A DNA stretch of 64,000 bases from Neospora caninum Liverpool (Eukaryota > Apicomplexa > Conoidasida > Eucoccidiorida > Sarcocystidae): the NCBI RefSeq assembly GCF_000208865.1, contig NC_018392.1, positions 1 through 64,000 of the forward strand. The letters are read 5' to 3'. This document shows, piece by piece, positions 23,802 to 61,905 of the stretch. The notes below the pieces were generated by a model. The model was not told the origin of the DNA. It made no database searches and saw only the letters and a program-made list of their open reading frames with translations. Position numbers and translations under genes: made by a program. Positions within the stretch are counted from its first letter, which is position 1. Each line of letters starts with the position of its first letter.

Positions 23802-26800
23802 TCATAGTTCATCACGCGTGGAATCAAACATTCCACTCACGCTAGCATGCTCCACAACGAACTCCCGCAACCCATCAACTGTTCGAACACCATTGAATTC
23901 AATGGGTTTTCCGCTGCCTTTCCTCACCAACCAAATGGTGGGGAAGCCTGTCCATTTGAACTCGGGGTTGTCTAGCGTGTTTTGAGTCCCGTCCATCTTC
24001 GCTACAACCAGATTCTTCGCAGCAGTTGCCGATTTTGCAGCTTCTCGCGCAAATGCCTCATACACAGGCTCGAGCTTCTTGCAGTGGCCGCACCACGGGG
24101 CGTACACCTCCAGCAACACGTCCTGTACCACAGAACCACCCCGCGCCGTGCAAACGCGCCTAGTGAACCCACAAGCACCCGTGACACATGTCCCTCGCAT
24201 TGAGAACAGAACTACATCCCGCCTTATCCATCGAAAACCTATGCCCTAATGCTCACCTTGTCGCTCTGCAACACCTCCTTCTCGAAAGTGTTCCTCACAA
24301 TGACCTTCACTGGGCCACTGTTATCGGTAGGCACTGACTGGGACAAAGGCTTCGGTGGCTCCTCTGGCGGCAATTCGACCTCGATCTTCGACGTGGCATG
24401 TTCCTGCACAAACTTCAGCAGGTCCCTTGCCGATCGGCCCCCGGTATGTTTGATGGGCTTGCCGCTTCCCTTCTTGATGAACCAAATGGTGGGGAAGCCT
24501 GTCCATTTGAACTCGGGGTTGTCTAGCGTGTTTTGAGTCCCGTCCATCTTCGCGACAACCAGATTCTTCGCAGCAGTTGCCGATTTTGCAGCTTCTCGCG
24601 CAAATGCCTCATACACAGGCTCGAGCTTCTTGCAGTGGCCGCACCACGGGGCGTACACCTCCAGCAACACGTCCTGTACCACAGAACCACCCCGCGCCGT
24701 GCAAACGCGCCTAGTGAACCCACAAGCACCCGTGACACATGTCCCTCGCATTGAGAACAGAACTACATCCCGCCTTATCCATCGAAAACCTATGCCCTAA
24801 TGCTCACCTTGTCGCTCTGCAACACCTCCTTCTCGAAAGTGTTCCTCACAATGACCTTCACTGGGCCACTGTTATCGGTCGGCACTGACTGGGACAAAGG
24901 CTTCGGTGGCTCCTCTGGCGGCAATTCGACCTCGATCTTCGACGTGGCATGTTCCTGCACAAACTTCAGCAGGTCCCTTGCCGATCGGCCCCCGGTATGT
25001 TTGATGGGCTTGCCGCTTCCCTTCTTGATGAACCAAATGGTGGGGAAGCCTGTCCATTTGAACTCGGGGTTGTCTAGCGTGTTTTGAGTCCCGTCCATCT
25101 TCGCGACAACCAGATTCTTCGCAGCAGTTGCCGATTTTGCAGCTTCTCGCGCAAATGCCTCATACACAGGCTCGAGCTTCTTGCAGTGGCCGCACCACGG
25201 GGCGTACACCTCCAGCAACACGTCCTGTACCACAGAACCACCCCGCGCCGTGCAAACGCGCCTAGTGAACCCACAAGCACCCGTGACACATGTCCCTCGC
25301 ATTGAGAACAGAACTACATCCCGCCTTATCCATCGAAAACCTATGCCCTAATGCTCACCTTGTCGCTCTGCAACACCTCCTTCTCGAAAGTGTTCCTCAC
25401 AATGACCTTCACTGGGCCACTGTTATCGGTCGGCACTGACTGGGACAAAGGCTTCGGTGGCTCCGCTGGCGGCAATTCGACCTCGATCTTCGACGTGGCA
25501 TGTTCCTGCACAAACTTCAGCAGGTCCCTTGCCGATCGGCCCCCGGTATGTTTGATGGGCTTGCCGCTTCCCTTCTTGATGAACCAAATGGTGGGGAAGC
25601 CTGTCCATTTGAACTCGGGGTTGTCTAGCGTGTTTTGAGTCCCGTCCATCTTCGCGACAACCAGATTCTTCGCGGCAGTTGCCGATTTTGCAGCTTCTCG
25701 CGCAAATGCCTCATACACAGGCTCGAGCTTCTTGCAGTGGCCGCACCACGGGGCGTACACCTCCAGCAACACGTCCTGTACCACAGAACCACCCCGCGCC
25801 GTGCAAACGCGCCTAGTGAACCCACAAGCACCCGTGACACATGTCCCTCGCATTGAGAACAGAACTACATCCCGCCTTATCCATCGAAAACCTATGCCCT
25901 AATGCTCACCTTGTCGCTCTGCAACACCTCCTTCTCGAAAGTGTTCCTCACAATGACCTTCACTGGGCCACTGTTATCGGTAGGCACTGACTGGGACAAA
26001 GGCTTCGGTGGCTCCTCTGGCGGCAATTCGACCTCGATCTTCGACGTGGCATGTTCCTGCACAAACTTCAGCAGGTCCCTTGCCGATCGGCCCCCGGTAT
26101 GTTTGATGGGCTTGCCGCTTCCCTTCTTGATGAACCAAATGGTGGGGAAGCCTGTCCATTTGAACTCGGGGTTGTCTAGCATGTTTTGAGTCCCGTCCAT
26201 CTTCGCGACAACCAGATTCTTCGCAGCAGTTGCCGATTTTGCAGCTTCTCGCGCGAATGCCTCATACACAGGCTCGAGCTTCTTGCAGTGGCCGCACCAC
26301 GGGGCGTACACCTCCAGCAACACGTCCTGTACCACAGAACCACCCCGCGCCGTGCAAACGCGCCTAGTGAACCCACAAGCACCCGTGACACATGTCCCTC
26401 GCATTGAGAACAGAACTACATCCCGCCTTATCCATCGAAAACCTATGCCCTAATGCTCACCTTGTCGCTCTGCAACACCTCCTTCTCGAAAGTGTTCCTC
26501 ACAATGACCTTCACTGGGCCACTGTTATCGGTAGGCACTGACTGGGACAAAGGCTTCGGTGGCTCCTCTGGCGGCAATTCGACCTCGATCTTCGACGTGG
26601 CATGTTCCTGCACAAACTTCAGCAGGTCCCTTGCCGATCGGCCCCCGGTATGTTTGATGGGCTTGCCGCTTCCCTTCTTGATGAACCAAATGGTGGGGAA
26701 GCCTGTCCATTTGAACTCGGGGTTGTCTAGCGTGTTTTGAGTCCCGTCCATCTTCGCGACAACCAGATTCTTCGCAGCAGTTGCCGATTTTGCAGCTTCT

Positions 26801-29800
26801 CGCGCAAATGCCTCATACACAGGCTCGAGCTTCTTGCAGTGGCCGCACCACGGGGCGTACACCTTCAGCAACACGTCCTGTACCACAGAACCACCCCGCG
26901 CCGTGCAAACGCGCCTAGTGAACCCACAAGCACTCGTGACACATGTCCCTCGCATTGAGAACAGAACTACATCCCGCCTTATCCATCGAAAACCTATGCC
27001 CTAATGCTCACCTTGTCGCTCTGCAACACCTCCTTCTCGAAAGTGTTCCTCACAATGACCTTCACTGGGCCACTGTTATCGGTCGGCACTGACTGGGACA
27101 AAGGCTTCGGTGGCTCCTCTGGCGGCAATTCGACCTCGATCTTCGACGTGGCATGTTCCTGCACAAACTTCAGCAGGTCCCTTGCCGATCGGCCCCCGCT
27201 ATGTTTGATGGGCTTGCCGCTTCCCTTCTTGATGAACCAAATGGTGGGGAAGCCTGTCCATTTGAACTCGGGGTTGTCTAGCGTGTTTTGAGTCCCGTCC
27301 ATCTTCGCTACAACCAGATTCTTCGCGGCAGTTGCCGATTTTGCAGCTTCTCGCGCGAATGCCTCATACACAGGCTCGAGCTTCTTGCAGTGGCCGCACC
27401 ACGGGGCGTACACCTCCAGCAACACGTCCTGTACCACAGAACCACCCCGCGCCGTGCAAACGCGCCTAGTGAACCCACAAGCACCCGTGACACATGTCCC
27501 TCGCATTGAGAACAGAACTACATCCCGCCTTATCCATCGAAAACCTATGCCCTAATGCTCACCTTGTCGCTCTGCAACACCTCCTTCTCGAAAGTGTTCC
27601 TCACAATGACCTTCACTGGGCCACTGTTATCGGTAGGCACTGACTGGGACAAAGGCTTCGGTGGCTCCTCTGGCGGCAATTCGACCTCGATCTTCGACGT
27701 GGCATGTTCCTGCACAAACTTCAGCAGGTCCCTTGCCGATCGGCCCCCGGTATGTTTGATGGGCTTGCCGCTTCCCTTCTTGATGAACCAAATGGTGGGG
27801 AAGCCGGTGATCTTGAAGTCATCCTGGGAGGGTCGGGTTTCGGTGCCGTCCATCTTGGCGACGACAAGGTGTGCGCGGGCGCTCGGGGATTTTGCTGCGG
27901 CGGTGGCGAACGCCTCGTACACGGGCTGCAGGCGCTTGCAGTGCCCACACCACGGGGCGTACACCTCGAGGAGAACATCCTGAGGCAGCCACGGCATCGC
28001 ACAATCGAAGAGACGGTCGCAAACTGGCCCCAATGTCTCTGGAGAGAGGTGACGCGCCCTCGAACGCAGCAGAAACGTGGCACTGAGCGGACCAAAGGAA
28101 GCGCAGGCTCCCCGTCCCAGCCGATGCCACCCCGGGGCGTGAGTGCACCCGACTGCTGTCGTTCCGAGATCTGCAGCTGGCCGTCAACCCTGTAGCCCTC
28201 TGGCCCGTTATCCCATGCTGAGCCACGCGAGCGACGTGTGTGCCGCTCCACGTCGCCGGTCGTTTGATGGCCTTCCAGACGCTGCGGTCCGCAGGCCGGA
28301 CCCTGAAACACTGTCCCGGGGTGTGCGGCGCGTCGAAAGGCGTACCTTGTCCCCGTTGACGATTTTGTCAAAGTTCGCGGCGTTCACGACTGTGGCCGCA
28401 CTAGGGCCGGAGAAGACATCCACCTCTGGCGGCGGAATGCCAGCGATGTCGAGCGCGGGGTTGCTCCCGTGCTTCACAATGAAGTCGTAGAACCCTCGGA
28501 GCGTGCGGGGACCTGAGAAGGGAATGGGCGTTCGAGACCCGGCCTTGATGAACAAAATGGTGGGATAGGCCGACCAGGAAAACGCCTTGTGTCGGGTTGA
28601 GTTCTCCGTCCCGTCCATCTTCGCCACTACGAGAGACTTTGCAGACGGAGAGAGCGAGGCGAGACGAGCAAACTCTTCGTAGGTCGGCTTCAGGTTCTTG
28701 CAGTGTCCGCACCACGGCGCGTAGATCTCCAAGAGAACGTCCTGCAGGGCCACAGCGCGCACACCCCTCGCCGAGCAAACCCCGTGTCAAAACAAGAGCG
28801 AGCGCAGTGCTCACAAGCAGGCAACTAACGACAAACCGCTGAGAAGTAAACAGAAGCTCTCGCTCGCGCATTTCAGATGAAGGAGATCGGCGGCCGCCGC
28901 TATGTGGATAACGGGTCTTTCGGTGTGCGCCTCGAGTTCTGTGTATGTAGGTCTGTGTAGTTGCGTGCACGTGTCTACTTGAGTCTACACTGGCAGCCAC
29001 GGAGGTGGAGCTGCCCAGACTTGTGTGAGCCCATATCTTTCCGTCTCTGGCCGCCCGTCATTCTGCGTCCCCTCTCGTGCGCAGTTACCTGCTGCCGAAA
29101 GCGTCGAGCCTGCGTCGAACGGAGGCTCTCAGCTTTGCCGCCTTGCTCCCCCACACGCGCCACAAAGCGAACGCATGCAGCGAAAAGGGAATTCTACGGC
29201 GGACTCTCTACGCGGAAGAGCTAACGCGATCTCCTATTTCCTATACTATTAGTGAACCCTTTTTGTCTGATCGTAAGTACGCAGTGAGCCCGCTGAGTGC
29301 ATCCTTGTCCTGGGGCACCTGAATCCCGAAAAACGGCTCTTTTCAAGTTCGGGGCGGGCGAATGCGAGAGACCTTGCGGTCCAGGGATCCCCAAAGAGAC
29401 ACACCCGAGAGCTCTGGAAACCTAGGGGCCTGCCTCGTCTCTGTGGACACGAGATCTTGGGTGTCTTTAAAGTATTTGTAGCGCGCTGGTTACATACTTG
29501 CCAACAAACTATAGAAGTTTACGCAAAAGCAAAGGTGCGTTATGTAAGGTATTCTCGGAACCATTTACAATTTTATAGCTACATTTTGTTGAAGCGGGGG
29601 GGGGGGACAATCTTCCAATTTACATCTTTAAAGTACATAACGGCGGGTGGGCACTCCCAGGGTCCTTGAACCACCTTCGGATCTGATAGTTACCTTTTCT
29701 TCGTTGAAGACGATGCTGTCGAAGGTGTTCCCGACGACAACTTTGACCGGTTTCGAGTTGTCTTCAGGGACTGCCTGGGACATGACTTCAGCCAGATCTT

Positions 29801-32800
29801 CGGGGACCGTGGGCCGGAACTCCGCAGCTACGTGCTTGGCGACGAATTCCACCGTGTTGTACACGGTGAGGGCGTCCTCCATGACTTGAACTTTCTCTCG
29901 GTCGTGTCCCGGCGGCAGAACGAGAACTCGCGGCTGAGATTTGTAGTTGCAGAAGTCGAAGGGCTCTGGGTACCGGTTCGTGAGACCGTCGGCCAGGGCG
30001 AACGTGACAGGCGCCTTCTTGTCGGCGAACGCCCGGGCCGCCTTGAGGAATTTAGGTAGGAACGAGGAACTCTTGTTGCAGAAGGAGGAGTACGAGGCAA
30101 TCACAACGACCTGACAAGGAAACACACAACGGCAATTGGCGAGGATCCAGGCTCCGGACGGCGCCGAGGCAGAAGCAGGCGTGAACGAGTACAGCGGTTC
30201 AATCGAGAGTCGACGCATTCGATAGTGCGCAGAGCTCCGGAGACAGCGCAGCTGAGTTGCCACAACAGGGACTGCCTCACTCACACCGGGGCTTCAGAAC
30301 AGCCGAGAACTTCCCGAAAAGGACACTGCGGGGTCGGAAAACGCGCTGTCCCTCTTCAGTGCCCTCGCCTCACTGGGAGTGAACCTCGACTGTGGCGCCA
30401 CCCGCCGAGGACCAAATTCACTCCCCTTTCCAGACAGACGAGCTTCACGAAGCAGCAGACCCACAGGTGAGAAATGCCACAGAGACGTGCCAGTCGGCTT
30501 CCGGGCTCCGTGTTTACCGGACACAAAGAGACGCGGGGCTGCTTTCCACGCAGAAGCGCGACCTCTCCACGGTTTCCCAGAGAGACACGGGGAAGGGTGA
30601 TGCAGAGGCATCACGGCACACGGCCTCCGGATGCAAGACGTGGGAACTGCGCGTCTTCTCTGCAGCCCGCCCCACTCAGAGGGTACCTTTTCCTTTTCGA
30701 GGACGTTCGCGATGTTTCCGGAGTAGAGCTGAACGAGCGGATAAGGACGGTTTGCGTCTTTCCGCGGCTCTGCCTCGCACGCGCACCGCGGCGGAGCCGT
30801 CGTGGGATCGACTTTCACCATGTCGTCGGCGACTGTCGGCGTGCCTTTCTGTCGAGACGCGTACACCTCGAGAGCTTGGAAGTAGTAGCAGAAAATCTTG
30901 TTCGGAACCAAGTGCTCTTGGGCGTACTGGCGAGCTGGACAGGCAACCCAAAATCCCCAGCGACGGTGCCCATCGGATCACCACCCGAGAGAAGAAACGC
31001 GCCAGGAGAGAAGAGACAGAAGGATAGGGCGAGAGACAGACGGACACCGGGGGACTGAGGCAAGTGAAGAAGGCTTCATCCGTCGTTCGGCGCGAAGCGA
31101 GATTTACCCGGCCTTCACGCTCGGACACACACAGCCTTCCTTCTGGATCCACGCGCGCGAGGCCGTCTTGACAGAGAGCCGAAGACCCGACCAATGACCG
31201 GCTCTTCAGAATTGCTGGACGGGGGGTGTGCATAAACACGCGCAAAATTCCGTTCGCCTGAGGCTTTCCCTTGTGTGTCTATGCGAACGTGTAATATTCG
31301 TACCGTACCTGGGGCCACGTGTATCCGCGTATGTGCATGCATACAAGTAGACACAGCCCAAAAAGCCGAAACTCTCGCAAACCTACCCCGGTCGGCGATG
31401 GCTTGAGCCTCGACAGGGTGCTCCTCCGCCCACTTCAGCTGGTCCACGAGATCGGAAAGATCGTTCTTGAAGGGAAGGTAGTGGACGCCAGCCTTTAGGT
31501 CCCCGTAGAACCACTCGTAGTACCGCGACTCGTGCTTCAACGGGAGACTTCCAGCTGTTGCCAACACACGAGAGGCAGGCGCGTCGAGGACAAGACTGGT
31601 GCACAGACTGGGAATGCTCGCACGTCTTGCAGCTAACAAGAAGAGACACACGTTATGACCCACAGGCGGCGCTCCGGAGATCAAACGCAACGTCGCGAGG
31701 GACACGGCTGCACTTGTGTTTTATATATTTACATATATATGTTTGCATACGTATCAGTGTATGCATGAACGCTATGTACGCCTGCGGTGGGGCAAAAGGG
31801 CCCGAAGACGATTTCCGGCTGCATCGGGGTGTTGACGGCCGGTCGACGTTCCCGTTGCTCCACGAGCTCTTTCGTCTCCAAAACCCTACTTACTCATGAG
31901 GAGGTAGGGCGTCCGGAAGGGTGCGACGCTTCCGTCGACGAGGAGTTGGTATTTGTACTCGCCGAACTTCTCGAGAGGAATTCGGGATTTGTAGCCGCCT
32001 CCAAGTTTCTTCTCCTGCTCGGCGTACGTGTCGTTTTCCCAACTGGTGATTGCCACGTCGAGAATGTCGTGCTTCTGGGCGAGTTCCGCGAGTTTCACGC
32101 GCAGCGAGTTGCTGTCTCTGCCGCGGAAGAGAGCCTTCGGAATGCGCTTCGCCAGAGGTTCTCCCGATCGCGCCTGATACACCCAGAGGGGAGTAGCCGA
32201 AGAAAGTTAGGAAAAGCGACACGGACAGCCAGGAAATGTGCGCAGGTGCCTCCTGGCGAGCCGGCGAAGAGGAGACAGGAAATGTCGTGTTCCTCGATGG
32301 CCAAAGAAGAAAAGACGGACTCGAAAGGAGCGGTAACGACAAGAGCAAAAGACTCGCCCACTGAGTTGAAAACCCTCTGCTTCACTGCTCACCTGAATCG
32401 TGAGGAGATCGGGTTGCGACTTGCCGAGACCCACGGTGCTAGTCTTGGCGACATCCCACTGAGGAAGAATGATGTCGAAGGTGTCGTCGGAGCCCGACCA
32501 GGAGAAGAGCGGCAAACCGCCTTCGTCTGCATTGCGTTTCTCCAGAGGCCAGTCGCCCAAGTTCATGAAAAACTCAACATCTGCAAAAGGCCACAGGGTC
32601 CACAGTCCTGACGCGTTCCTCCACTCCCTAAGCAGGTGCCAGGCCAACAAGAATCCGATCCGTGCGTTAAACCCCGAAACTCTGCGCACATCCCGGCGTC
32701 TTCACACTTCAACGCATGCCCATTGGCTGTAGCGACTACCCTACAAATACCACCCGGCATACTTGCATGGGTGGAGACATGCAAGTACCCAAACACACAC

Positions 32801-34655
32801 ACACACGGACACAAATACACGCACGCACATCTGTGGAGTTGCACGTATATATATGTTTGGGCGGTAGACAGACTGGTTAGACAGCCGTCTGTGCCAAGGA
32901 TACAACAAACGAGATACTTAAGCAAGGTGAAGAGCCTGTATTACGTGGAGAGACGCAGAGAGCAGGGATCTGTCGACCCCGCTGCTCCCCATGTGGGTGT
33001 CGGTGGCGACGCGGCTGTTTCCATAGCGTCCGCTGTTGCCTTACCCGGAAGCTTGACAGCTGCAGCGAGGTAAAGCAAGACGTTGTCGATGAAGTACTGG
33101 AAACCCGGGAGAGGCCCAAAGTGCCGACGGAAAATTTGGTTATCCTTGACCACGTAGTGAACCACTGTCCGCAGGGTATTGGGCGCCGCGAACGCCGGGC
33201 CGTCCTTTCTCAGACGTGCCAAGTCGACGACGGGGAATTTCGAGATATCCTGAAGACAAGAAGCCGTTTCAAACCAGAAATGTCAAGTGCTGCGCCACAC
33301 CGGTTCATGCATGTGACAAACAGTTGCGCACACACGCAAAGGGACAGATACAGAGATCCTTGTGTTGAGGGGAAAATGAGACACGCACATGTCCACTGGA
33401 CGCGAGACTCACGCGCCCGTGTGGGGCTCTCTGTGTGTGGATCCGCAGGCAAGTGACGTTCAGGAAAAGGACCAAACATGTCAAAACGTAGACGCATGCA
33501 TGCGACTTGAGCCGTGCAAATACAGCTCGAGAAAGAGCGAGACACAGATGTAGACCGAAAGCCAGATCTAGTAGATTGATATACAAAAAGGTGCCTTTTC
33601 CAGGGAACTCTTTGGCCGTTTCATCGTGCTGCAAGGTTCAGGTGCGTATCATCCGGTAAAACATAGACCATCGCAGACATGTCTACGCATCCAAACCTTG
33701 CAGCGAGTTCCCGTCTCAACATGCATTCCAACCCCCCCCCCCTCCCCCAGCCGAGAGTTTCACGCACAGCCACACGCTGTGGAGTCGGTGGAACCCGAAC
33801 CATCGTTCCTCTGTCCGCTTCCTGCCTTTTTCTTCCTCCCCATGCCGCTCGCGCCGCAGGCTGGATCGTATATACAAATACATATGCATGTGTGTTTGTG
33901 CAAAGCTATGCTCTCTCTCCCTCTCTCTGTCGCCCTGTCTACTTCTCTCCCTCTCCTTTCGACCTCTTTCTTCTTCTCCCTTCCCGTCTTTGTCTGGCTC
34001 TCACCCGTTCCAGTTGGCGGGGCAGGGTGCGAGGACAGCTGAGTGCCTGCTTCCAGGCGTCTGCGTTTTCCGGGCATCTGCAAGTTGCCGGGTGGATGGG
34101 GCCTTCCATCTTGAAGACGAACGGCTCAACGATGCTTCTGTCTGGCTTTTTGCCAGCGTAGAGAACCTTTCCGCTGAGCGTGTGCCCCGCGGGAATGGCG
34201 TCGTGGAGCGAGAAGCGGAAGAGGAAAGTTCCATCTTGTCGACTGACCACTTGCGAGCTCAGCTTCGCGCCTCCGGGAAGGCGCGGCGTAGTCGACCAGG
34301 ACACGCTGAACTCGGAGGAAAGAGCCTGTTTCTCTCCCTCCGTCAACGCACCTTTGTCGGAGTGGAGCGAGAGCGAGAAGAAGCGAGACGGGACGTTGAA
34401 GCCCGGGTGCATACCGGGGCCCTCCGCCACGAAACTCAGATGCGACGCACTCAGGAGGCGCCTTTGCACGACGTAGTAGCAGAGCGCAAAGAGGAGAACG
34501 ACGAGAGAGAGCGACGACACTGTCAAGTATCGGCGGAGACGCTTGAACGCGGCGCTCGCGCGAGAAAAACACCCCGCGACACCCGAACGTCGACGCGCCA
34601 GAGACGCCGCTTTCGGCCCGGGCGAGCCCGCTGTCACAGGGCGGCCGGCCTTCAT
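23802..34655 (-). CDS. CAP10/GT90 O-glycosyltransferase fused to a multi-module PDI chain
   Basis: Sixteen phase-matched minus exons: 34655-34005, 33249-33045, 32580-32393, 32173-31894, 31554-31387, 30934-30687, 30110-29694, 28741-28346, 27979-27563, six of 417 bases starting at 27428, 26877, 26326, 25775, 25224 and 24673, and 24122-23802. Predicted length is about 1,930 aa. A basic N-terminus and TM segment (about 43-63) suggest a type II anchor. A filamin-like region and CRCP motif follow. The CAP10 domain (about 218-580) shows DVEFFMNLGDWPL, KRIPKALFRGRDS, KYQLLVDGSVAPFRTPYLL and YYEWFYGDLKAGVHY, as in POGLUT2/3 (KDELC) enzymes that glucosylate or xylosylate Ser in the ER. Residues 581-719 form a thioredoxin-like module with FCNKS in place of CGHC. 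Nine modules with WCGHC follow. The C-terminus is RDEL, an ER retrieval signal on the lumenal side for a type II protein. Separate genes are possible, but exon 6 to 7 is in phase and completes a thioredoxin fold. Confidence 0.82.
23930..27805 (-). repeat. 551-bp tandem array of PDI exon plus intron, seven units
   Basis: A 551-bp unit (417-base phase-0 exon and 134-base intron) recurs about seven times with near identity in both exon and intron. ORF and splice landmarks repeat exactly every 551 bases: donors after 24257, 24808, 25359, 25910, 26461, 27012 and 27563. Six full exons plus the shared 3' part of exon 9 and the shared 5' part of the last exon make up the array. Identity stops at the same short word (ccaaatggtggggaagcc) at both ends, inside the GFPTIW codons. 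Only scattered single-base differences separate units. Confidence 0.95.
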
Positions 34656-37680: not shown

Positions 37681-40600
37681 ATGGCGAGCGGTATTGCAAC
37701 AGTGAAGGAAGTTGTGTCGGGCGACACATTCGTCCTCGTCGGGGCGCCTAAAGGTAGGATTCTTCTGCAAATGCAGTCCGTTCGATAAAAAAGATCTTCT
37801 GCTACAGGGACATGGGCGTGCTCTCGCGTTGCAAGCGCCACGTGGCATGACGAGAACACAAAAAACACCAAATTCGAGAGAGGTTTGGAAACGGCATGCG
37901 GGGTCAGAGTTCACTCGCCTCCCGACATGGACGGGGGAAGTGTGAGGGATTTTCTTCTGTTTTCCTCTCTTTCAAAACTGGAGAAACAAACGCGCACCTC
38001 GCTTCTTCTGCTCGGCCTCTATGTAGCCTGTGTCTCTCCCTCGACGTCCCTCCCGGAGTGGCCTCTCTTTCGCGTGTCCCTGCGGCTCTGGCACGTCTCC
38101 TTGCTTCGCTCTTGCGAGAATTTCCTTCGAAACGCATGCTCGTTCTTCTTAACACCCCTTTGACTTCCTCTCCATTGCCTAGTCGCTCGCCATTTCTCCT
38201 CGGGTGTCTCTGCGGGGTCTCTTGCCCTCGAACACGCTCTTTGGTTTCTATGGAAAAAGGCCATCTCTTTCTCGCTTCAGTCTTCTCTCCCGTCCTCCTC
38301 CCTTTTCCTGTCGCTTCGTCCACCTCGAAAATTCTTTCCTCCGTTTTCTCTGCCGCTCTTCCTCCTCTCTGTCTGGGCTCGCCTCCGCAGTGCGTGCTCA
38401 CTTTCTTCCCCCCTCCACTGCCTCTACTCCCGCATGCACACGCTGTCTTTGTTCTTTTCCTTTACTTTCTCTCGCTTCCGCCCCGCCCTTACTTCATTCT
38501 TTTGTCTACCCCCCTGCAACTCCCCGTCCCTGCGTCGTCAGGTGTTCGTATGTTTCTCTGTGGCTGTCTTCCGTTCTACGGCCACACGCGGTTTTTTCCG
38601 TGTTTCGAGGCGACCCCGAGCAGAAAGGCGTCTCCCTCTTCTCGGTCTCCCTTCCCCTTTTCTCTCTGTCTCCCTTCCCCTTTTCTCTCGGTCTCCCTTC
38701 CCCTTTTCTCTCGGTCTCCCTTCCTCTTTTCTCTCTGTCCCCCTTCCCCTTTTCTCTCGGTCTCCCTTCCCCTTTTCTCTCGGTCTCCCTTCCCCTTTTC
38801 TCTCGGTCTCCCTTCCCCTTTTCTCTCTGTCTCCCTTCCTCTTTTCTCTTTGTCTCCTTTTCTCACTCTTCCCGCTCCTTGTCCTGTTTTCCCTCAGGGG
38901 GGCCGCCGCCGGAGAAGCGGCTGTCCCTCGCGTCCGTGCAGGCGCCGCGCGTGGCGATGAAGTCGCTGAGTCACGAGCTGCAAGACGAGCCTTACGGCTG
39001 GGCTGCTCGGGAGTGCATGCGGAACCGGTTGATCGGCCAGCAAGTCGAGTTCAAAGTGGACTACGTGCTGAGCAACAAGGAATACGGAACCATCAAATTC
39101 AACGGCGAGAACATTGCCTGCAGCCTCCTCAAACAGGGGCTCGCGAAGCTGAAGCCAAACAGGAACCCGCCGTGCGCCCCCGACATCGAAGGTAAACGGA
39201 AAAAGAGAGAGGAAAGGAAGAGAGAAGGGGAAGCAGAGAGGCGAGAGAAGCCAGAGAGATCCGAAAAAAGAGAAGAGCGAGGTGAAAGAAGCCGAGATGA
39301 CGGGTCCGCAACAGACGGCACTAGCAGCGGAGTGCCCGGCAAAATCTGTACAGAGACCAAACGTCGCGTTTCGGCGTTCAGATCCTCGCTTCCCCTTCCA
39401 AACGTGGAAAGACACGCCGACAGGTTGCCGCGGAAACGTCTAGTTCTTCGCGTAGCCTGCGGTACAGATATACCTTGGCCGCGACGCCTTGGAAGCGGCG
39501 AACGCGCGAGGCCGCGCGTGTGTCTCTCTCCGTGCCCGCTTCTCTCGACGACAGAAAACGCGTGTTTTCTTCTCGTGGGTTCGCAGAACTCGAGCAGTGC
39601 CAGGACTTCGCCGAGCAGCGGCAGCTCGGCGTGTGGGCTGCGGACCCTGCGGCGGGGAGTGGGACGGTGCGCGAGATGAAGTGGGCGGTGAACGACACGG
39701 CGTTCGTCAAGGCCTTTGTGGCGGAAAACAAGGGAAAGAAACTCCCGGGAATCGTCGAGTACGTCCGCGACGGCGGTTGCATGCGCGTGGCCCTCCTGCT
39801 TCCGCAGAAACCAGGAGAACCTCTCAAAGTCGTCTACCTCCCCATCCTCCTCTCAGGCATCCAGTGTGACGGTTTCAAGCGCGAGCAACAGGAAGGCTCG
39901 ACTGAGTTCAAAGTGGTCCCAGAGCCCTACGCAGGTAGACGCAACACCGAAAACGCGGCAGAAAACAGAAACGACAAAGTGCTTCAAGACAAAAAGGGAA
40001 AGGCGAAGAAGAAGCGAGGGTTCTGCATGTCTCAGATGCACATGAAAGACTTCACTCAGTGGCAAAGCGAGCGTGGTTTCCCAACCCCCGCTGATTGAAA
40101 CAAGTCTTGTTCGTCGAGCTCCACAGCCGGTTTCCACTTCCTGAGACATATATACATAGTTGTATGTAATTATATATATATATATATATATGTATATGTG
40201 CGCACTTTTGTACACGTGATTTTCGACATCTGGACGTCCTTCCTTGGACGTGTCTCTGGTAGATACACGCTTTTTCCGTGTTAAAACTGGTTGCGGCCGT
40301 GCGTTCCTTCACCTCGAACCAGATGAAGCTACCCACATGCGTGTACAGGTACTTGTAGCAGGTCCATATATATGTATATATATGTATATATATGTGTGTA
40401 TATGTATAGTGTGTATTTAGTTGCATGCAAGGATCGATTTGTCTGCCTTTGGTTGGGCCGCCGCAGGACTCGTGCGTGGTTGAGAGTCTGCGTGAGTCTC
40501 CATCTGTTTTCCATCTGTTTACCGCTTTTTCACCCACGTCTTTTTTCAGTCGAGGCGCGTTTCTTCGTGGAGATTCGATTGCTGAACCGGGATGTAGAAG

Positions 40601-43600
40601 TTCGCATAGAAGGCTGCGATGAATATGGCAACGTGAACGGGACGGTCTACCACCCAAAGGGGAACATTAGCGTCTTGCTCCTGCAGAACGGCCTCGCGAA
40701 GATCCAAACTGGAACATTGAGCCTGACCGAGTGCGCGTCTCAACTCTCACAAGCCATGCGAGAGGCCCAGCAGAAGCAACTGCGAAAGTGGAAGGTAACG
40801 CGTTTTTCAGGCATCGCCTCCAATGAAAAAATGCGAAACCTGAAAAAGTCTGACGCCAAGCCTGATGAGGGCTACGGGGGTTGCGACAGCTGGACCTGCG
40901 TCCACAGGGAAAAGGTGGGGGGGGGGGGGGGGACGGGGGGGGACGGGAAGGCGGCTTATCTGGAAGCCAGGAAGCGAGTGGGTGAGACAGGGCGAACAAA
41001 GGAGAGATAGAGTGAACGCCGAGGGACTAGGAAAAGCGGTTGAGAAAAAAGACAAGACGGAGGAGGGAGGGAATGCGCACGCGTTGTTTTGAGTTCGGTT
41101 AGCCCCTTTTTTCTCCGTTTCCAGGGCTGGTCGTCTTCGACGTCGGCGGTCGCCTCGAAGAATTACATGGCTCAGGTTGCAGAAATTTTGAGCGGAGACA
41201 GCGTCGTTCTGCGACTCCCAGACGGCAGCGAACGGCGCGTGTACCTCGCCAGCATCCGGTGTCCGCGTGCTGCCGGTGTCGGCAAGACTGCGTCTCGCGA
41301 GGAAGAAAGCATCGCGTTCGAAACGAAGGAATTCGTTCGCAAAAAGCTCATCGGGAAGAACGTCAAGGTGAGAAAAAAACCTCAGAACCGCGCAAAAGAA
41401 GTCGCGAACAGGGGAAAACGACCGAGAAGATCGCGAGCAGGACAAAACTCGGCTTTCGTCTCAGAGAGGAGAGAAAGAGAAAGCAGAGAACGGTTTCTAC
41501 GTGTCTGCAGACAGGGAATTCGCTATCTGGTTGGCAGAACGTGGCGATTTTGATTTTCTTTTAGGTCTTCGTGGAGTACCTTCGAGAGCCGCTCCCGAGC
41601 GCGTCGGGCGCGGCGTTGCCGCCCGCGAGCGACGACCAGGGACGCATGCACTTTGTCAGTTTGTGGATTCCAAACAGCCCGAAGGACACCGATCCCACGC
41701 AAACGAAAAACGGCCAGAACATTGCCGAGTTGCTTCTCCAAGCTGGACTCGCCAAGACTATCCCCCACCGAGCCGACGACGAACGCGCCGCTGTGAGTCG
41801 CAGCCCACTTTCTTTCCCCGCCGTGTCTCGGTGGTTTGCGCGTCAAAATCTGAGAGGCTGCATGCGCACGGTCTGTTTGAGTCGAGCACGCTTGGATAGA
41901 TCCACACACTGCACCTTTGAAAAGGGGCGTTTGCACATGTCGGCGTGCTGGCAGTAAGCGTATAGGTGGAACGGCGGGTCGAGGAGGTACAGTTTTCCGG
42001 ACCTCGGAGCACTTTTTGCATCAGTCTGTTTGCGTGTGTGGGTCAAAAAGTCTGGATTGAGAGAGCTGAAGGCGCAGAGAGTGGCGCGCATGTGGGGAGA
42101 TTGACGGCTGTGTTTGGTTCTGTGTTTTCAGGAGTACGAGAAATATCTGGAGCTGGAGCAAGTCGCAACTCAGCAGAAGAAGGGTTTGCATGCGCCGCCT
42201 CAGCAGTGGAAAGTCCACCGCATCATCGACTTGCTCGGCCCCACAAACGCCCAACGCGCCAATGCGTATTTCCAACAACTCGAGAGAATCCCGAAACTCG
42301 ACGGTGTCGTGGACCATGTCTTCGGCCCTGGCAGATTCAAGATTCGAATTCCTTCGGTACGCGTCCATCTACACAAAAATATGCGTTGTATGTGTATTGT
42401 ATATACTTACATCCGAGTACGAGTTGTGTATATATATATATATGTATGTGGATGCATATAAGTGAAAAAAAAGTTCTCGCCGGAATTCACGTTCAGCACG
42501 CATATCGGGAGGGGGGGGGGCGGGTGAACCTACGGATATGTGTGTGGGACGGCTCCCTGTGTTTGTATGCATGCATACGTTTGTTTGCCTGCGTCACTGC
42601 TTGTTTTTCCGTGGCCCGTTTGCTCATCTTCTGAGCGTGCGCTTGCGCTCGGACAGCTCTCGCGCCTCATGATGTCCACTTCCGGCCGTCTCCAGAAGCC
42701 TCTTTTCATGAGGTCTAGTTCCCCTCCCTGAGTGAGCAGCAGGACCTCCGTTTCTCTTGCGTGTGTGTGCCTCTGCAGCAAAACATTGCGATTTCGTTTG
42801 TGTTGGGAGGCCTTCGGTGCCCCCAGACTGCACCTCGCCCAGGGTCGTTTGCGGCGACTGCGCGGCCAGGCAAGGCTCGCGAGGCAGAGCCGTTTGGGGA
42901 GGAGGCGCTGAGTTTCTCCCGCGCGCGGGTGTTGCAGCGCGACGTGCAGGTGAAAGTTGAGTCCGTGGACAAGGGCGGAAACTTTATCGGCAACTTCTGG
43001 TACGGTCAGGGCAAGCAAAACCTCGCAGTCGACCTCCTTGAGCTCGGCTACGCCCACACCGTCGATTTCTCGCTCGCCAGGTGTTCGTTGCGCGAGTTGC
43101 TCACGGCGGCGGAGGCAAAGGCGAAGGCTGCTCGGATGAACATTTGGAGTCTCCCGGGAGCTCTGGAGGCGGAGGAAAACGCGGCGAAAGAAGTCCAAGT
43201 CGACGAAGTCCTCCCCCACGTGACTGTGACCCACGTCGAGGGCGTCGACAGCTTCTTCATTCAGGTGAAAAACTCTCCGATCTGGAGAGAGAATCGGATA
43301 TTGCAGGCGGGGCCTCGCAACTCGCGGTAGCGATTGACGGGGGGAGGGGGTATATACTAGCACAGAATATGCATTTGTATCTATGTGCATCGACGTAGAC
43401 AGACGCATACACATGTGCACATGGAGGCAGGCAGATACAGAGAATGAGAGAGTTACATGCATCATATGCACAAGCATCTACCATATGTTATAGTAGCACT
43501 TATATATATATATATATATATGAATTTGCAGATGTAGATGTATGTGGCGTGAATGTGATGGATGTGTATGTGCCTTTTGTTTTCTCAGGATCCATCGAGT

Positions 43601-48200: not shown

Positions 48201-48654
48201 GTTTGTTATGTGGAATCTGCCCGATCGTGTGTGCAAAATAACGATCTCTCGGAAACAGGCAAGCAGCTTTTCCGCTGAGCCACCACGATTCCGCCCAGTC
48301 GCGTGGGGATATGAAATGCTCCATCCGCGGTAAAGAAACGAAGCGCTGTCGCCATACACATTGGGAAAAAAGAGCAGCGTCGGCGCGCAAAAGTCGATCG
48401 ATTTAACTCAAAGTGGACTCCTCCCTCTGTGTGGACGTCTCTTACGAACGGGGAGGGCACGCACGCACGGGATTTGAATGCCATCAAGTCTCTTCGTACA
48501 CTCCTCTGGACCCAAACTTGGCGGTATCTCGCTCTCTCTCTCGCACAGGAACGGACGGATACCCCTCCGCACACACACACACACACGTCTGTTCAAGTCC
48601 TGATGTGAGACTGCCTCTCTCCATTCGCTTTGCCTTCTCTGGTGAGCTGTGGAG
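45273..48654. other. Intergenic between Tudor-SN and the EF-hand gene
   Basis: No supported gene. The first part is probably Tudor-SN 3' UTR, with a possible short last exon at 45795-45807. A (CA)n run lies at 45284-45300 and a (TA)n run near 47260-47285. Overlapping frames at 45791-46516 on both strands have no recognisable domain. Confidence 0.5.
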
Positions 48655-49560
48655 ATGGAACCTCAGCTGCGATCTGTTGTTCGCGGGGCCGTCGGGCGTC
48701 TGGCCGAGGCCGAGACATTGCTGACTCCGCAGGAACTCGCGCTGCTCCGGCAAGCTTTTGCGAAATTGGACCAAGACGGCGATGACTGGTTAAGTCCGGA
48801 AGATCTTCGGCGCAGCATGCATGCAGACGGGATCTGCGCGACAAAGGCAGAAGCAGAAACATACGTCTGGGAAGTCGATGAAGACGGAGACGGCAGGTTG
48901 GCGTTCCCGGACTTTGCTCTGCTGTATGCTCGAGCTAGGCGTGGTGTCCGCCGCCGGGAACCGCGAAAGTTGTCCAACTATTTGATTTATCGCTTGATTG
49001 ATTTAGACTGCGACGGAAAACTCGACACCGCCCAAGTGTACTCTTACCTGTGTCACATCATGGACAAAGACGCCGCGAACCGGAACATGAACAAGATCTT
49101 TGGGGTCTGCTCGGATTCACCCACGACGGCCGAAGTGACCCCCGCGCAGTGGCTTACCATTCTCGAGACGTCGCTCTGGGAAAAGGACTGCCCGATCGTG
49201 GATGACGAAAGCGCGGCTCGGCACGCCAAACAGAATGCGCGCTTTCCACTGCCTCCGAAAGATAGTCTGCAAAGCGTGCGACCGAGGGTCTACGATCGAC
49301 TTGACATCAAGAAACTGCGAGAAACCAGGAAGCAAGTTGTCGCGGGAGTTGCGCCTCTTCGGCACGAACCCTACCGAGGCAGGTGTCCCAGAGCGCGAAA
49401 TCAAAAAAGTCCAAAGCCACCGGCAAATGTCACTCCAGGAATCTGTTCTCCCGGCGCATGCGAAAACTCCAGTCGGAGACTCCATGGAGGCCTCGCTACC
49501 GGGATTCAACGAGAAACGACGGGGCTGAAGCAAGTCAAACTTCAGACAGGAGTCAGATGA
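48655..49560 (+). CDS. EF-hand calcium-binding protein, single exon
   Basis: This is an uninterrupted 301-aa frame. The ATG at 48655 is in frame and follows a pyrimidine-rich leader. EF-hand 1 has loop DQDGDDWLSPED (39-50) and EF-hand 2 has DEDGDGRLAFPD (75-86); both keep Asp at 1, 3 and 5 and an acidic residue at 12, so calcium binding is likely. A third loop, DLDCDGKLDTAQ (116-127), has Gln at position 12 and is probably weak or inactive. The C-terminal third is basic and low complexity (RARNQKSPKPPANV). I cannot assign an orthologue. There is no signal peptide or TM segment, so it is presumably cytosolic or cytoskeletal. The lack of introns contrasts with its neighbours. Confidence 0.85.
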   Translation: MEPQLRSVVRGAVGRLAEAETLLTPQELALLRQAFAKLDQDGDDWLSPEDLRRSMHADGICATKAEAETYVWEVDEDGDGRLAFPDFALLYARARRGVRRREPRKLSNYLIYRLIDLDCDGKLDTAQVYSYLCHIMDKDAANRNMNKIFGVCSDSPTTAEVTPAQWLTILETSLWEKDCPIVDDESAARHAKQNARFPLPPKDSLQSVRPRVYDRLDIKKLRETRKQVVAGVAPLRHEPYRGRCPRARNQKSPKPPANVTPGICSPGACENSSRRLHGGLATGIQRETTGLKQVKLQTGVR

Positions 49561-56483: not shown

Positions 56484-59400
56484 TTACACAGATTTTGCGG
56501 TCGACAGTGCGACATGTTTGTGAGTCGACTGTAGCGAGAGGCAAGCTGGAAGACGTTCCTTTGTTCCCTTTCTGTCCCCTTTCATCTTTCGTGTGTCTGG
56601 GTGGTCTCTGTCGCGTCTGGCCCTCTCTCGTTTCTGATCTGGGCGTGGCGCATCGGCGTCGCCCTCTTCGCTGTCCCAGAGACTTCGGAGACTCTCTGAA
56701 CTTCCCGCGCTTTTCCCTCGCGCAGGCAGGAGAGGTCTCTCGTGGTGAGTCTGTGGCGGAAAAGGAAGCGGAGAAAACGCGGCCGAAGGCGACGCGAAGA
56801 GAGCCAATTTCAAGAGGTCCAGAGGAGAAACGTCTGGGAAAGGCTTTCGCGGAAAAAGAGTCGGCAGCCCGGTCGGTGTCTGTGTCTCCTCTTCTCCCGA
56901 CTCGGATTCTCTCTCGTATCTCTCCGGTCTTTTGAAACCCTCCACTGGGCCGCTCCTGGAGTGCGTGGACGGCTGCGGCGCATGCACTTGAAGCTGCCTT
57001 TTCTCTGTCTGCTCGTCCCGCCTCGAGGTTCTTTCCGTCTTCGTCGCCCCTTCTCTTCTGGTGGTTGTCAGCCGCAGCGAGAGGAAACCCGTTTCCCTGG
57101 ACGCAGTTTCTCCGGAAACGCCCCAGCTACGCGTCGGCGCGGCCATGGTCTCTCCTTTCTCAAGAAACGTGTCCAGTGTTCTTGTCTCTGCGGAACAAGG
57201 CCGAGACGACCACGACGCGCGCGGGCCGGACGACGCACCTGGACGGCGCCCGGGAGAACAGAGAAAAAAGGCAGGAAATCCAACAGGAGGTGCACACGCC
57301 TGTGGAAGAGAAGAAGGGGGAGGAGAAGAAAAAGAAGAAGGGGGGGGAGGAGAAGAAAAAGAAGAAGAAGGGGGGAGAGAATAAGAAGAGGGGGGAGAGG
57401 AAGGAAAGACGGGACAAGGTTGAAGCGACCGAGGTGACAGAGAAGGACAAAAATGAGACCAGGAAGCGGTGGAAAAGCACGGAAACGGAGGAGGCGACTG
57501 AGGAAACGGAGGCAGAGAAGACGGACGAGAAGGAGGATGTGGAGGGCGAGGGGAGACACAAACGAGTTCTTTTCGCGTTCCGTCTTGGGCGCTTGCCGCG
57601 CAGCCCGTTTCAGGGAACACAGCAAAGTCCAGCTGGTCAGGCGCGTCTCGCAGATTTTCAGGAGGGCGAACAATTTCGTTTTGTTCATGCCACAGAGGAA
57701 CAGCGACAGGATTCGCAGAGGCGACTTCGCTTCTCCCTCGTCGGGAATCGAAGACTCTCCCGCCGGTCCTCGGCCGGTCCACGACCCAGTCGGGTCTTTC
57801 TCCTGTGTTTTGTCGCGCTTTTTTCTCTCTGTTCTCATCCGTACCCGCAGTCACTCTTTCTCCTCCCCCGAACCTCTGCGCTCCTCCACTTCCTGCCTGC
57901 CTCCTCGCTTTCCCTTCGGGCTCACATGCCCGACCAGAAGCACAAGCAGACGGAACAGAGGAAGAAGACGGAACAGGAGACGGAACAGAAGGGAGAGGCG
58001 TGAGGAGAATGATGTGTCGCCGGCGAGAAAGAGAAGAAGAGGGCTGAGGGCGCTCGGGAGAGCGCGGCGGTGCGTGGAGAGAGGCACGTTGGCGAGGGCA
58101 GTTGGGCAGGTGACAGGAGGCGACCTTCACTGAAACGCGGCCAGACGAGCTCAAGGATGGAGAGAGGAGCACCGTCTTTTCCACTGTTTTGTCCTTCGTG
58201 GAGGGAACAGTTTCTCCAGAGCAGCCCTTTTTGCTGAAGGTCTCCGCGTCTCGCCGCGCGCCAGCTTCTTCCTTCCCCTGCGCGGCCTTCTCATCTGTCG
58301 ACGCCTCCCCACAGCGTTCTCCACTCGGCGCGTCTTTCCCTCGTTCTCCTTTGCCCGTCGTTTCCGCGCGAGACGCGACGAGGAAACCCGAGAGGAGAGT
58401 GGGGAGCTGTTGTTGGGGGACGGAGAGAGAACGCGGAGAAAGAGCGCATGGAGAGAGAGAAGAGAGAGAACAAGAGACCGAAGAAGAGACAGAAGGACGG
58501 AAGGCTAGAAACGTAGAGCAAGCGGCCGATGGAGGAAAAGAAGACGACGGCAGGGGCGAAGACGACGGACGGGAGAAGGGAGACGTCCGCCGCGGTAAGA
58601 GTGGAGACGCGCACGTCTGCAAGGAACAGGAAGAAATCAGGGAAGATCGCGTCCGTCCACTGCCTTGAGCTAGCGTCGCCGCGCGTCCGTTCGCGTGCTG
58701 AGGCGGCTGAGAAGACGAGACGGGGAAAAGCCTTCCGCTTCTTCCTTCGCGGCCAGTTGCAGCCAGAGAACTTTCGTCTTTTGTCTCCCTGCATCTCGCG
58801 CGACCTAATCCAGACAGAGAAGACGAAGGACGCGAAGAAGGACGGGAAGAGAAAGCAGGGCGGGAAGAGGAAGGGAGAGAGGGGACAGCGGACTGTCGCG
58901 CGTGCGAGCGCGGTGCGAGAGCAGCGCGACGCGAAGGAGAGGACGAGGGGAGAGAAGAAGGCCGTCGCGATGCAGAAAGCTCACGAGAATTCGAGGTTGC
59001 GCGAGAAGAACGAGGCAGCGCAGGAGACAACAGAGAGCGCGGTGCCTTGTTGCTCGAAGGCGCCGAGGCCATCCGGCGTCGTGTGTCGCTCTCGAGCCCC
59101 CAGGAGAGAGACGCAGAAGAGAAAGGAAGCGAACTCTCTACAAAGTTCCTTCTCTCCCACTGCGACTCGAGTGTGCGTCGTGAAAGACAAGAAAAGGAAG
59201 CAAAAGGCGGAGAAACTCGGCCTCGAGGAGAAGCTGCGACCGTGGAAGGCTGAAGTGTCGAGGCAGTTGGTATGCGAATGGAAGAGGAACGCGTCTGCAT
59301 GACTATTTCCTTCACTCCTCGGTGTTGTCCCTTCTTCGTGGTTGCTTTGTTTCCGGTTTCGCTGTTTGCTTGGCTTCTCTCGTCGCCAATCGCGGTTCCT

Positions 59401-61487: not shown

Positions 61488-61905
61488 AGGAGAATCAGAC
61501 GAAAGGAGAAATAAGGAAGGAAGAAGAAAAGGGGAAGAGGAAGACGGGGAAGACTGGGAAGACGGGGAAGAGAAGAGTAAGGTGTTGCCACAGGACTCCC
61601 CCGCGTAGTGTTGAAGTCGGTGGCATCTCTAGCTCTGTGGCAATCTACACGAAGAAAGGAAACGGAGAAGGATGGCGGCAAGCAGAACACGAAAGGAGCA
61701 CACGGAAGGAAAGGTGGTACGCAAAGGAAACAAGAGCCCAACGCAGAACAAAGCGTCTCGTCCTCTCCAAGATCGCGACGGAAACGAAACTTCCAATGTG
61801 AATGTCCTTCCAGCGTTTCTGTGTGACAAAGAGGCACCGAAACAAAGATACATCTACAGATCCATTTCTCTCTGCATTTACAGACACGCACGTGCATATT
61901 ACAAC

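Follow-up and report, generated by a model that had tools for sequence, protein, structure and literature searches.

A stretch of the minus strand at positions 34655 to 23802 of the window analyzed here, the first 64,000 nucleotides of Neospora caninum Liverpool contig NC_018392.1, encodes a glycosyltransferase of the GT90 family followed by a series of thioredoxin modules, and raises the question of whether both belong to one protein and what such a protein would do. We propose, with moderate confidence, that a single gene codes for a POGLUT2/3-type O-glucosyltransferase joined to ten thioredoxin modules and a C-terminal RDEL, likely a machine of the endoplasmic reticulum (ER) that folds its clients and then tags them. 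Joined by script, the 16 exons give a protein of 1930 amino acids (213.9 kDa) that ends in RDEL and contains no internal stop, and all 15 introns are bounded by GT-AG, with phases 0/1/0/1/1 for introns 1-5 and phase 0 for introns 6-15. The first-pass annotation of this DNA had read the locus as a single in-frame GT90-thioredoxin protein of about 210 kDa with 15 phase-compatible GT-AG junctions; the scripted joining reproduces the junctions and the predicted mass, and the open spliced frame, together with the same join in eight species, argues at the sequence level for the single protein.

Joined exons, combined with hydropathy and a structural match to 9w47 in the Toxoplasma model, place the hydrophobic N-terminal segment (residues 45-63), a filamin-like domain and the start of GT90 in exon 1 (34005..34655). 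GT90 continues in exon 2 (33045..33249; Pfam), exon 3 (32393..32580), which carries the catalytic base D295 in NLGDWP, exon 4 (31894..32173), with the UDP diphosphate ligands R367, S369, R373 and R435 (both exons assigned from the POGLUT2 alignment), and exon 5 (31387..31554). The start of exon 5 was set at acceptor 31554, and the alternative acceptor at 31632 discarded, because the resulting YLLMTGS join reads alike in the Toxoplasma and Besnoitia proteins. Exon 6 (30687..30934) contains, according to the joined exons and the model, the C-terminus of GT90 with CAC and the beginning of the first thioredoxin module, its last 19 residues, YPLVQLYSGNIANVLEKEK (30687-30743), corresponding to strand 1 and helix 1 of that module. 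Intron 6 (30111..30686; 576 bp, phase 0) interrupts the thioredoxin fold at the point where introns 7-15 also do so. Exon 7 (29694..30110) encodes the first module, m0, with its C-N-K-S site; m1 is encoded by exon 8 (28346..28741), m2 by exon 9 (27563..27979), whose second half lies inside the homogenized array described below, m3-m8 by exons 10-15 (27428-27012, 26877-26461, 26326-25910, 25775-25359, 25224-24808 and 24673-24257), and m9, together with the RDEL C-terminus and the stop, by exon 16 (23802..24122); m1 to m9 all carry CGHC. The gene is already annotated, as 'Thioredoxin-like protein': its public model in N. caninum Liverpool, NCLIV_015430 (P0032, 1915 aa), matches the joined protein at 100% identity across the searched region 190-720, and over the full length the two differ in one respect only, the public model leaving out DVLLE (five residues) at exons 13, 14 and 15, though the acceptors of these exons are the same as at neighboring exons.

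The GT90-thioredoxin join recurs in eight coccidian proteins recovered by protein searches, one per species, namely those of Neospora (P0032), Toxoplasma (P0001, partial), Besnoitia (P0002), Cystoisospora (P0003), Eimeria flavescens (P0004), E. necatrix (P0005), E. mitis (P0006) and Cyclospora (P0035), every search having scored only the approximately 8000 candidates that share most words. Since the join is present in all eight coccidian GT90 proteins recovered, it is not a matter of chance, and the architecture that the first-pass annotation suggested seeking in other coccidia is found in the public models of seven further species. No fusion was detected outside coccidia: among the best 120 of 302 matches, the 113 not named as coccidian contain PF05686 without PF00085, and the same negative result holds for the other listed matches of two further searches (25 of 31 and 2 of 5, respectively). 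The remaining listed GT90 matches are mostly animal POGLUT2/3 proteins, and they all lack a thioredoxin domain. The first-pass annotation knew of no described GT90-PDI fusion, and the full-text literature that we searched likewise describes none; subscription papers fall mostly outside its scope, and the Toxoplasma glycogene survey (Gas-Pascual and others) may mention it. The Toxoplasma protein as modeled by AlphaFold (mean pLDDT 78.4, pTM 0.61, 20-row alignment) has a strand (567-570) and a helix (575-580) equivalent to the end of exon 6 ahead of the strand (585-591) and helix (596-614) of exon 7, and the Tyr-Pro of strand 1, at the end of exon 6, is invariant in all eight species. The thioredoxin fold of m0 is accordingly predicted to span the boundary of exons 6 and 7, as had been proposed from the letters of the Neospora sequence.

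With respect to the nature of the transferase, the Pfam search of the joined protein recovered PF05686 at 220.8 bits against a cut-off of 24 (residues 242-544), with the PF00085 thioredoxin stretches after it, the order anticipated when a domain search of the joined protein was first put forward; PF05686 was also present in all six public coccidian proteins scanned (eight were found in all). The domain that precedes GT90 appears to be filamin-like: the structural match of the Toxoplasma model to 9w47 starts at model residue 72 and chain residue 27, and the sequence match in this region begins at chain residue 86. The Pfam filamin model was reported neither for the window protein nor for the six public proteins scanned, which weighs against the filamin assignment. 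In the alignment with POGLUT2, the catalytic base D238 corresponds to D295, and the diphosphate ligands R310, S312, R316 and R376 to R367, S369, R373 and R435; the equivalents of all five are unchanged in 20 of 20 alignment rows, and changing them lowered the activity of human POGLUT2, as reported in the available part of PMC13084666. In the uracil pocket I354 is retained but H353 is not, and of nine EGF-contact residues checked four are kept (F210, F213, W239 and D271) and four are changed. The Neospora protein carries the six cysteines (C192, C194, C207, C513, C548 and C550) of the three inter-fragment disulfides, with C548 and C550 displaced two positions in the alignment as printed, which itself pairs C493 with A552.

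By sequence, then, the GT90 part is specifically POGLUT2/3-like, and the combination of filamin and GT90 narrows the KDELC-like kinship suggested earlier to POGLUT2/POGLUT3 (KDELC1/KDELC2), the animal EGF O-glucosyltransferases. The Neospora protein shares with these enzymes the order of filamin-like domain and GT90, the catalytic base, the diphosphate ligands, the inter-fragment disulfide cysteines and an ER-retention tail. It differs from them in the ten thioredoxin modules placed between the end of GT90 and the tail, in a probable hydrophobic N-terminal anchor where the animal enzymes are described as soluble, and in several residues of the acceptor rim. Thus, the protein is POGLUT2/3-like by sequence and fold but has an architecture of its own, the component parts of which are all of known kinds. 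A POGLUT1-type activity was rejected, given that the filamin domain and the sequence score favor POGLUT2/3 and that the 27 EGF loci of the genome contain one plausible C-x-S-x-P/A-C site (CKSFPC), a second match to this pattern holding a stop. We likewise rejected a lateral acquisition from one of the animal lineages sampled: in a GT90 tree of 39 rows (8 coccidian and 31 chosen from the matches, with no outgroup), the coccidian sequences form one side of a branch with 100/100 support and are not nested in the animals shown. An early lateral transfer of GT90 may have occurred.

The Neospora chain comprises ten thioredoxin modules, of which nine carry CGHC, and Pfam reports nine PF00085 stretches (P0032), m0 being unrecognized by the thioredoxin model. 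The profile match of m0 is to PDI a' domains (2b5e, E 3.7e-8), and where these have C-G-H-C it reads C-N-[KRQ]-S in all eight species. The ten modules of the first-pass annotation therefore stand in the joined frame, with the qualifications that the first is devoid of CxxC (C-N-K-S) and that the number depends on the assembly, because the distal modules form a near-identical array. In a module tree of 29 rows (three hand-trimmed), m0 forms one group across all coccidia (100/100), as does m1 with weaker support (83/76), whereas the later modules split into one group from Eimeria (95/89) and another shared by Neospora and Toxoplasma (95/90), in which the species are not cleanly separated, Neospora m2 pairing with Toxoplasma m2 (100/99). 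PDI, ERp57, ERp72 and ERdj5, which profile and fold comparisons place closest to the modules among solved structures, also combine CGHC modules with an ER-retention tail; the Neospora chain differs in being fused to a glycosyltransferase and in its nine CGHC modules, six of which (m3-m8) are near-identical, preceded by a C-N-x-S module. The latter shows motif kinship with the CxxS thioredoxins of the ERp44 and AGR2 type, which have a single N-terminal active-site cysteine and of which proteins such as ERp44 hold clients by a mixed disulfide; unlike these, m0 is part of a larger chain beside a glycosyltransferase and its closest profiles are PDI a' domains.

Glycan enzymes and thioredoxin-like domains meet in other ER systems. 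UGGT is a folding sensor that combines thioredoxin-like domains with a glucosyltransferase in one protein, but its transferase belongs to GT24 rather than GT90, its substrate is the N-glycan and its thioredoxin-like domains have no CGHC; the UGGT family was absent among the 13 Pfam families matched by P0032 at E up to 0.1. The EDEM/Htm1-PDI complexes (8pko and 8zpw, among the matches) similarly bring together a glycan enzyme and PDI, in this case as two proteins in a complex, the enzyme being a glycosidase and not a fused transferase.

The near-identical array extends from the middle of exon 9 to the middle of exon 16 (23929..27805, minus strand; ends placed by exon comparisons) and has a unit of 551 bp, a 417-bp exon plus a 134-bp intron; it was missed by Tandem Repeats Finder, whose longest period of 500 is below the length of the unit. 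The six pure units vary at 9 of 551 sites (eight exonic, one intronic), differ pairwise at 1-7 and represent six distinct haplotypes, and all eight genome matches of the unit are at this locus. The seven 134-bp introns of the array (24123-27562, minus strand) are identical to the first at 133-134 of 134 positions and resemble one another no less than the exons do, suggesting homogenization at the level of the DNA in addition to any selection on the protein. When m2 and m3 are compared in Neospora and Toxoplasma, eight sites among residues 1-60 track position and none tracks species, whereas among residues 61-139 four sites track species and none tracks position; on this small number of sites, the border of the homogenized unit falls mid-exon in both genera, which explains the mixed Neospora/Toxoplasma branch of the module tree. 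Such a border likely results from unequal crossing-over or gene conversion, through which the number of distal modules would drift. A likely chromosome end lies some 22 kb beyond the 3' end of the gene, the contig beginning with CCCTAAA-type repeats, first degenerate and then regular, that run to about position 1790.

The alternative that survives best concerns this array: the count of near-identical modules could be wrong in this assembly, the real gene having fewer or more, which we regard as somewhat unlikely. The units differ at only the nine sites, and the Toxoplasma VEG protein, marked as partial, ends within its own array; conversely, the six distinct haplotypes are unlike a simple assembly duplication, and the mid-exon border of the array is present in Toxoplasma as well.

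As for the cellular location, the RDEL that follows the thioredoxin chain matches the pattern [KRHQSA]-[DENQ]-E-L quoted in the available part of PMC7803782, and hydropathy of P0032 peaks at residues 45-63 (2.18 for the best 19-residue window) between basic flanks. The best window reaches at least 1.38 in seven of the eight proteins (0.57 in E. mitis), the Toxoplasma model has a helix at 33-69, and the N-terminal hydrophobic segment is likely to be a membrane anchor. Of the type II anchor and RDEL end originally proposed, then, the tail is confirmed in Neospora, one of eight species, and the anchor is suggested by hydropathy, with E. mitis lacking a clear one. That RDEL occurs in a single model is because the other public models end earlier: those of Besnoitia, Cystoisospora, E. 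necatrix, E. mitis and Cyclospora extend 4 to 35 residues beyond a module boundary, apparently into an intron, and that of E. flavescens ends in unrelated sequence. The 3' side of these six models, which are not marked as partial, is likely incomplete.

We suggest that the CGHC modules would form and rearrange disulfides in EGF domains, after which the GT90 part would put glucose on the folded domains. Fold-then-tag is the reading offered by a chain predicted to make disulfides when it is fused to an enzyme of a type that recognizes folded EGF. By analogy with ERp44, the C-N-x-S module beside GT90 may keep the client by a mixed disulfide instead of releasing it, so that folding of the client by the distal CGHC modules would take place close to the transferase. 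Because animal POGLUTs, as described in the available part of PMC7803782, take only folded EGF repeats and are regarded as quality control, the glucose would be a sign that a domain has folded. The first-pass annotation had one protein both glycosylating and disulfide-bonding its clients; the predicted single chain with both parts stands, and the joint action on a client is what we infer. From a POGLUT2/3-like enzyme one would expect clients to be EGF repeats that contain the motif C3-x-N-T-x-G-S-F/Y-x-C4. The genome yields 27 EGF_CA matches, with six distinct EGF sites in their loci carrying the exact C-x-N-T-x-G-S-[FY]-x-C motif, in EGF-rich loci (L006, L013, L014 and L016) on contigs 10, 8 and 13, and parasite adhesins bearing EGF domains are plausible clients. 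Adhesins rich in thrombospondin repeats (TSRs), named as clients earlier, were set aside, because POFUT2 and a GT31 enzyme make the known O-fucose of TSRs and its glucose cap according to the available part of PMC8724618. An O-FucT match (PF10250) is found on another contig (L032, C10:3221270-3221623), with one TGA within it, perhaps because the six-frame search ran through an intron.

Several observations weigh against the fold-then-tag reading. H353 of the uracil pocket is replaced by R, and at the substrate rim Y270 is W, Q187 is R, H207 is L and N336 is S, the alignment at F338 being unreliable; one of the two CxC pairs is absent in Eimeria and Cyclospora. The N-T-x-G-S-F/Y motif overlaps a common EGF_CA consensus, so that the exact-motif sites are weak, permissive evidence. 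RDEL is seen in the one model out of eight, the E. mitis model is without a clear anchor and, like that of E. necatrix, deviates from the others at the N-terminus, and the structural model, with a pTM of 0.61, does not determine how GT90 sits relative to the thioredoxin modules. The changes at the substrate rim and uracil contact, the coccidian TSWE in place of the TNFFFF of POGLUT2, and the ability of POGLUTs to transfer xylose (stated in the available part of PMC7803782) would all fit a real fusion in which GT90 uses another acceptor or donor, such as xylose, and in which the thioredoxin chain, a general oxidoreductase, owes nothing but its anchor to the fusion. We consider this unlikely in view of the catalytic base, diphosphate ligands and inter-fragment disulfide cysteines retained in Neospora and of the occurrence of the exact site motif in EGF domains of the genome. 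That GT90 has lost sugar transfer altogether and now serves the PDI chain solely by binding EGF, as the alteration of H353 and several EGF-contact residues might indicate, is improbable, since the five activity-critical residues of human POGLUT2 are invariant in the 20 rows. Finally, a wrong merger of two adjacent genes, a POGLUT2/3-like enzyme and a PDI, by gene finders in every coccidian genome would be helped by the 576-bp length of intron 6 and by an in-frame Met 36 codons upstream of exon 7 with no intervening stop (a possible separate short start), but is very improbable because the first thioredoxin strand and helix, with their invariant Y-P, lie within exon 6, the model folds this stretch together with the exon-7 part, unspliced exon 6 reads to a stop without an ER-retention signal, intron 6 contains neither AATAAA nor ATTAAA and matches introns 7-15 in phase and fold position, and both parts are joined in the public models of all eight species.

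The rest of the window offers little that is related. Rfam gave no matches on the 64 kb, and Pfam on 20 other open frames gave two SNase matches and one EF-hand frame, none related to the fusion gene. Two open frames at 38183-41007 (plus strand) with Staphylococcal-nuclease domains (PF00565) are possibly exons of one gene, which we take to be potentially Tudor-SN-like; an EF-hand pair (PF13499, E 6.6e-15) lies in an open frame at 48646-49557 (plus strand), and a 1714-aa open frame at 56487-61628 (minus strand) has no Pfam match at E 0.001.

In the available part of PMC8724618, EGF O-glucose is described for animals, and the enzymes behind the O-glucose reported in Trichomonas and Trypanosoma brucei are called unknown. 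The present gene provides a concrete coccidian candidate for animal-type EGF O-glucosylation, hidden under names such as 'thioredoxin' and 'PDI domain-containing'. Tentatively, and as a possibility short of an even chance, we envisage that coccidia perform this modification with one chain, in which nine CGHC modules fold, a C-N-x-S module holds and the transferase tags the EGF domain once it is folded, the length of the folding line being set by a telomere-near array that is homogenized per lineage and that could therefore change quickly. If both halves share a client, disulfide formation and O-glycosylation would be directly and physically coupled in one chain, and such coupling, if true, would offer a route to ask whether POGLUT-type enzymes are folding checkpoints.

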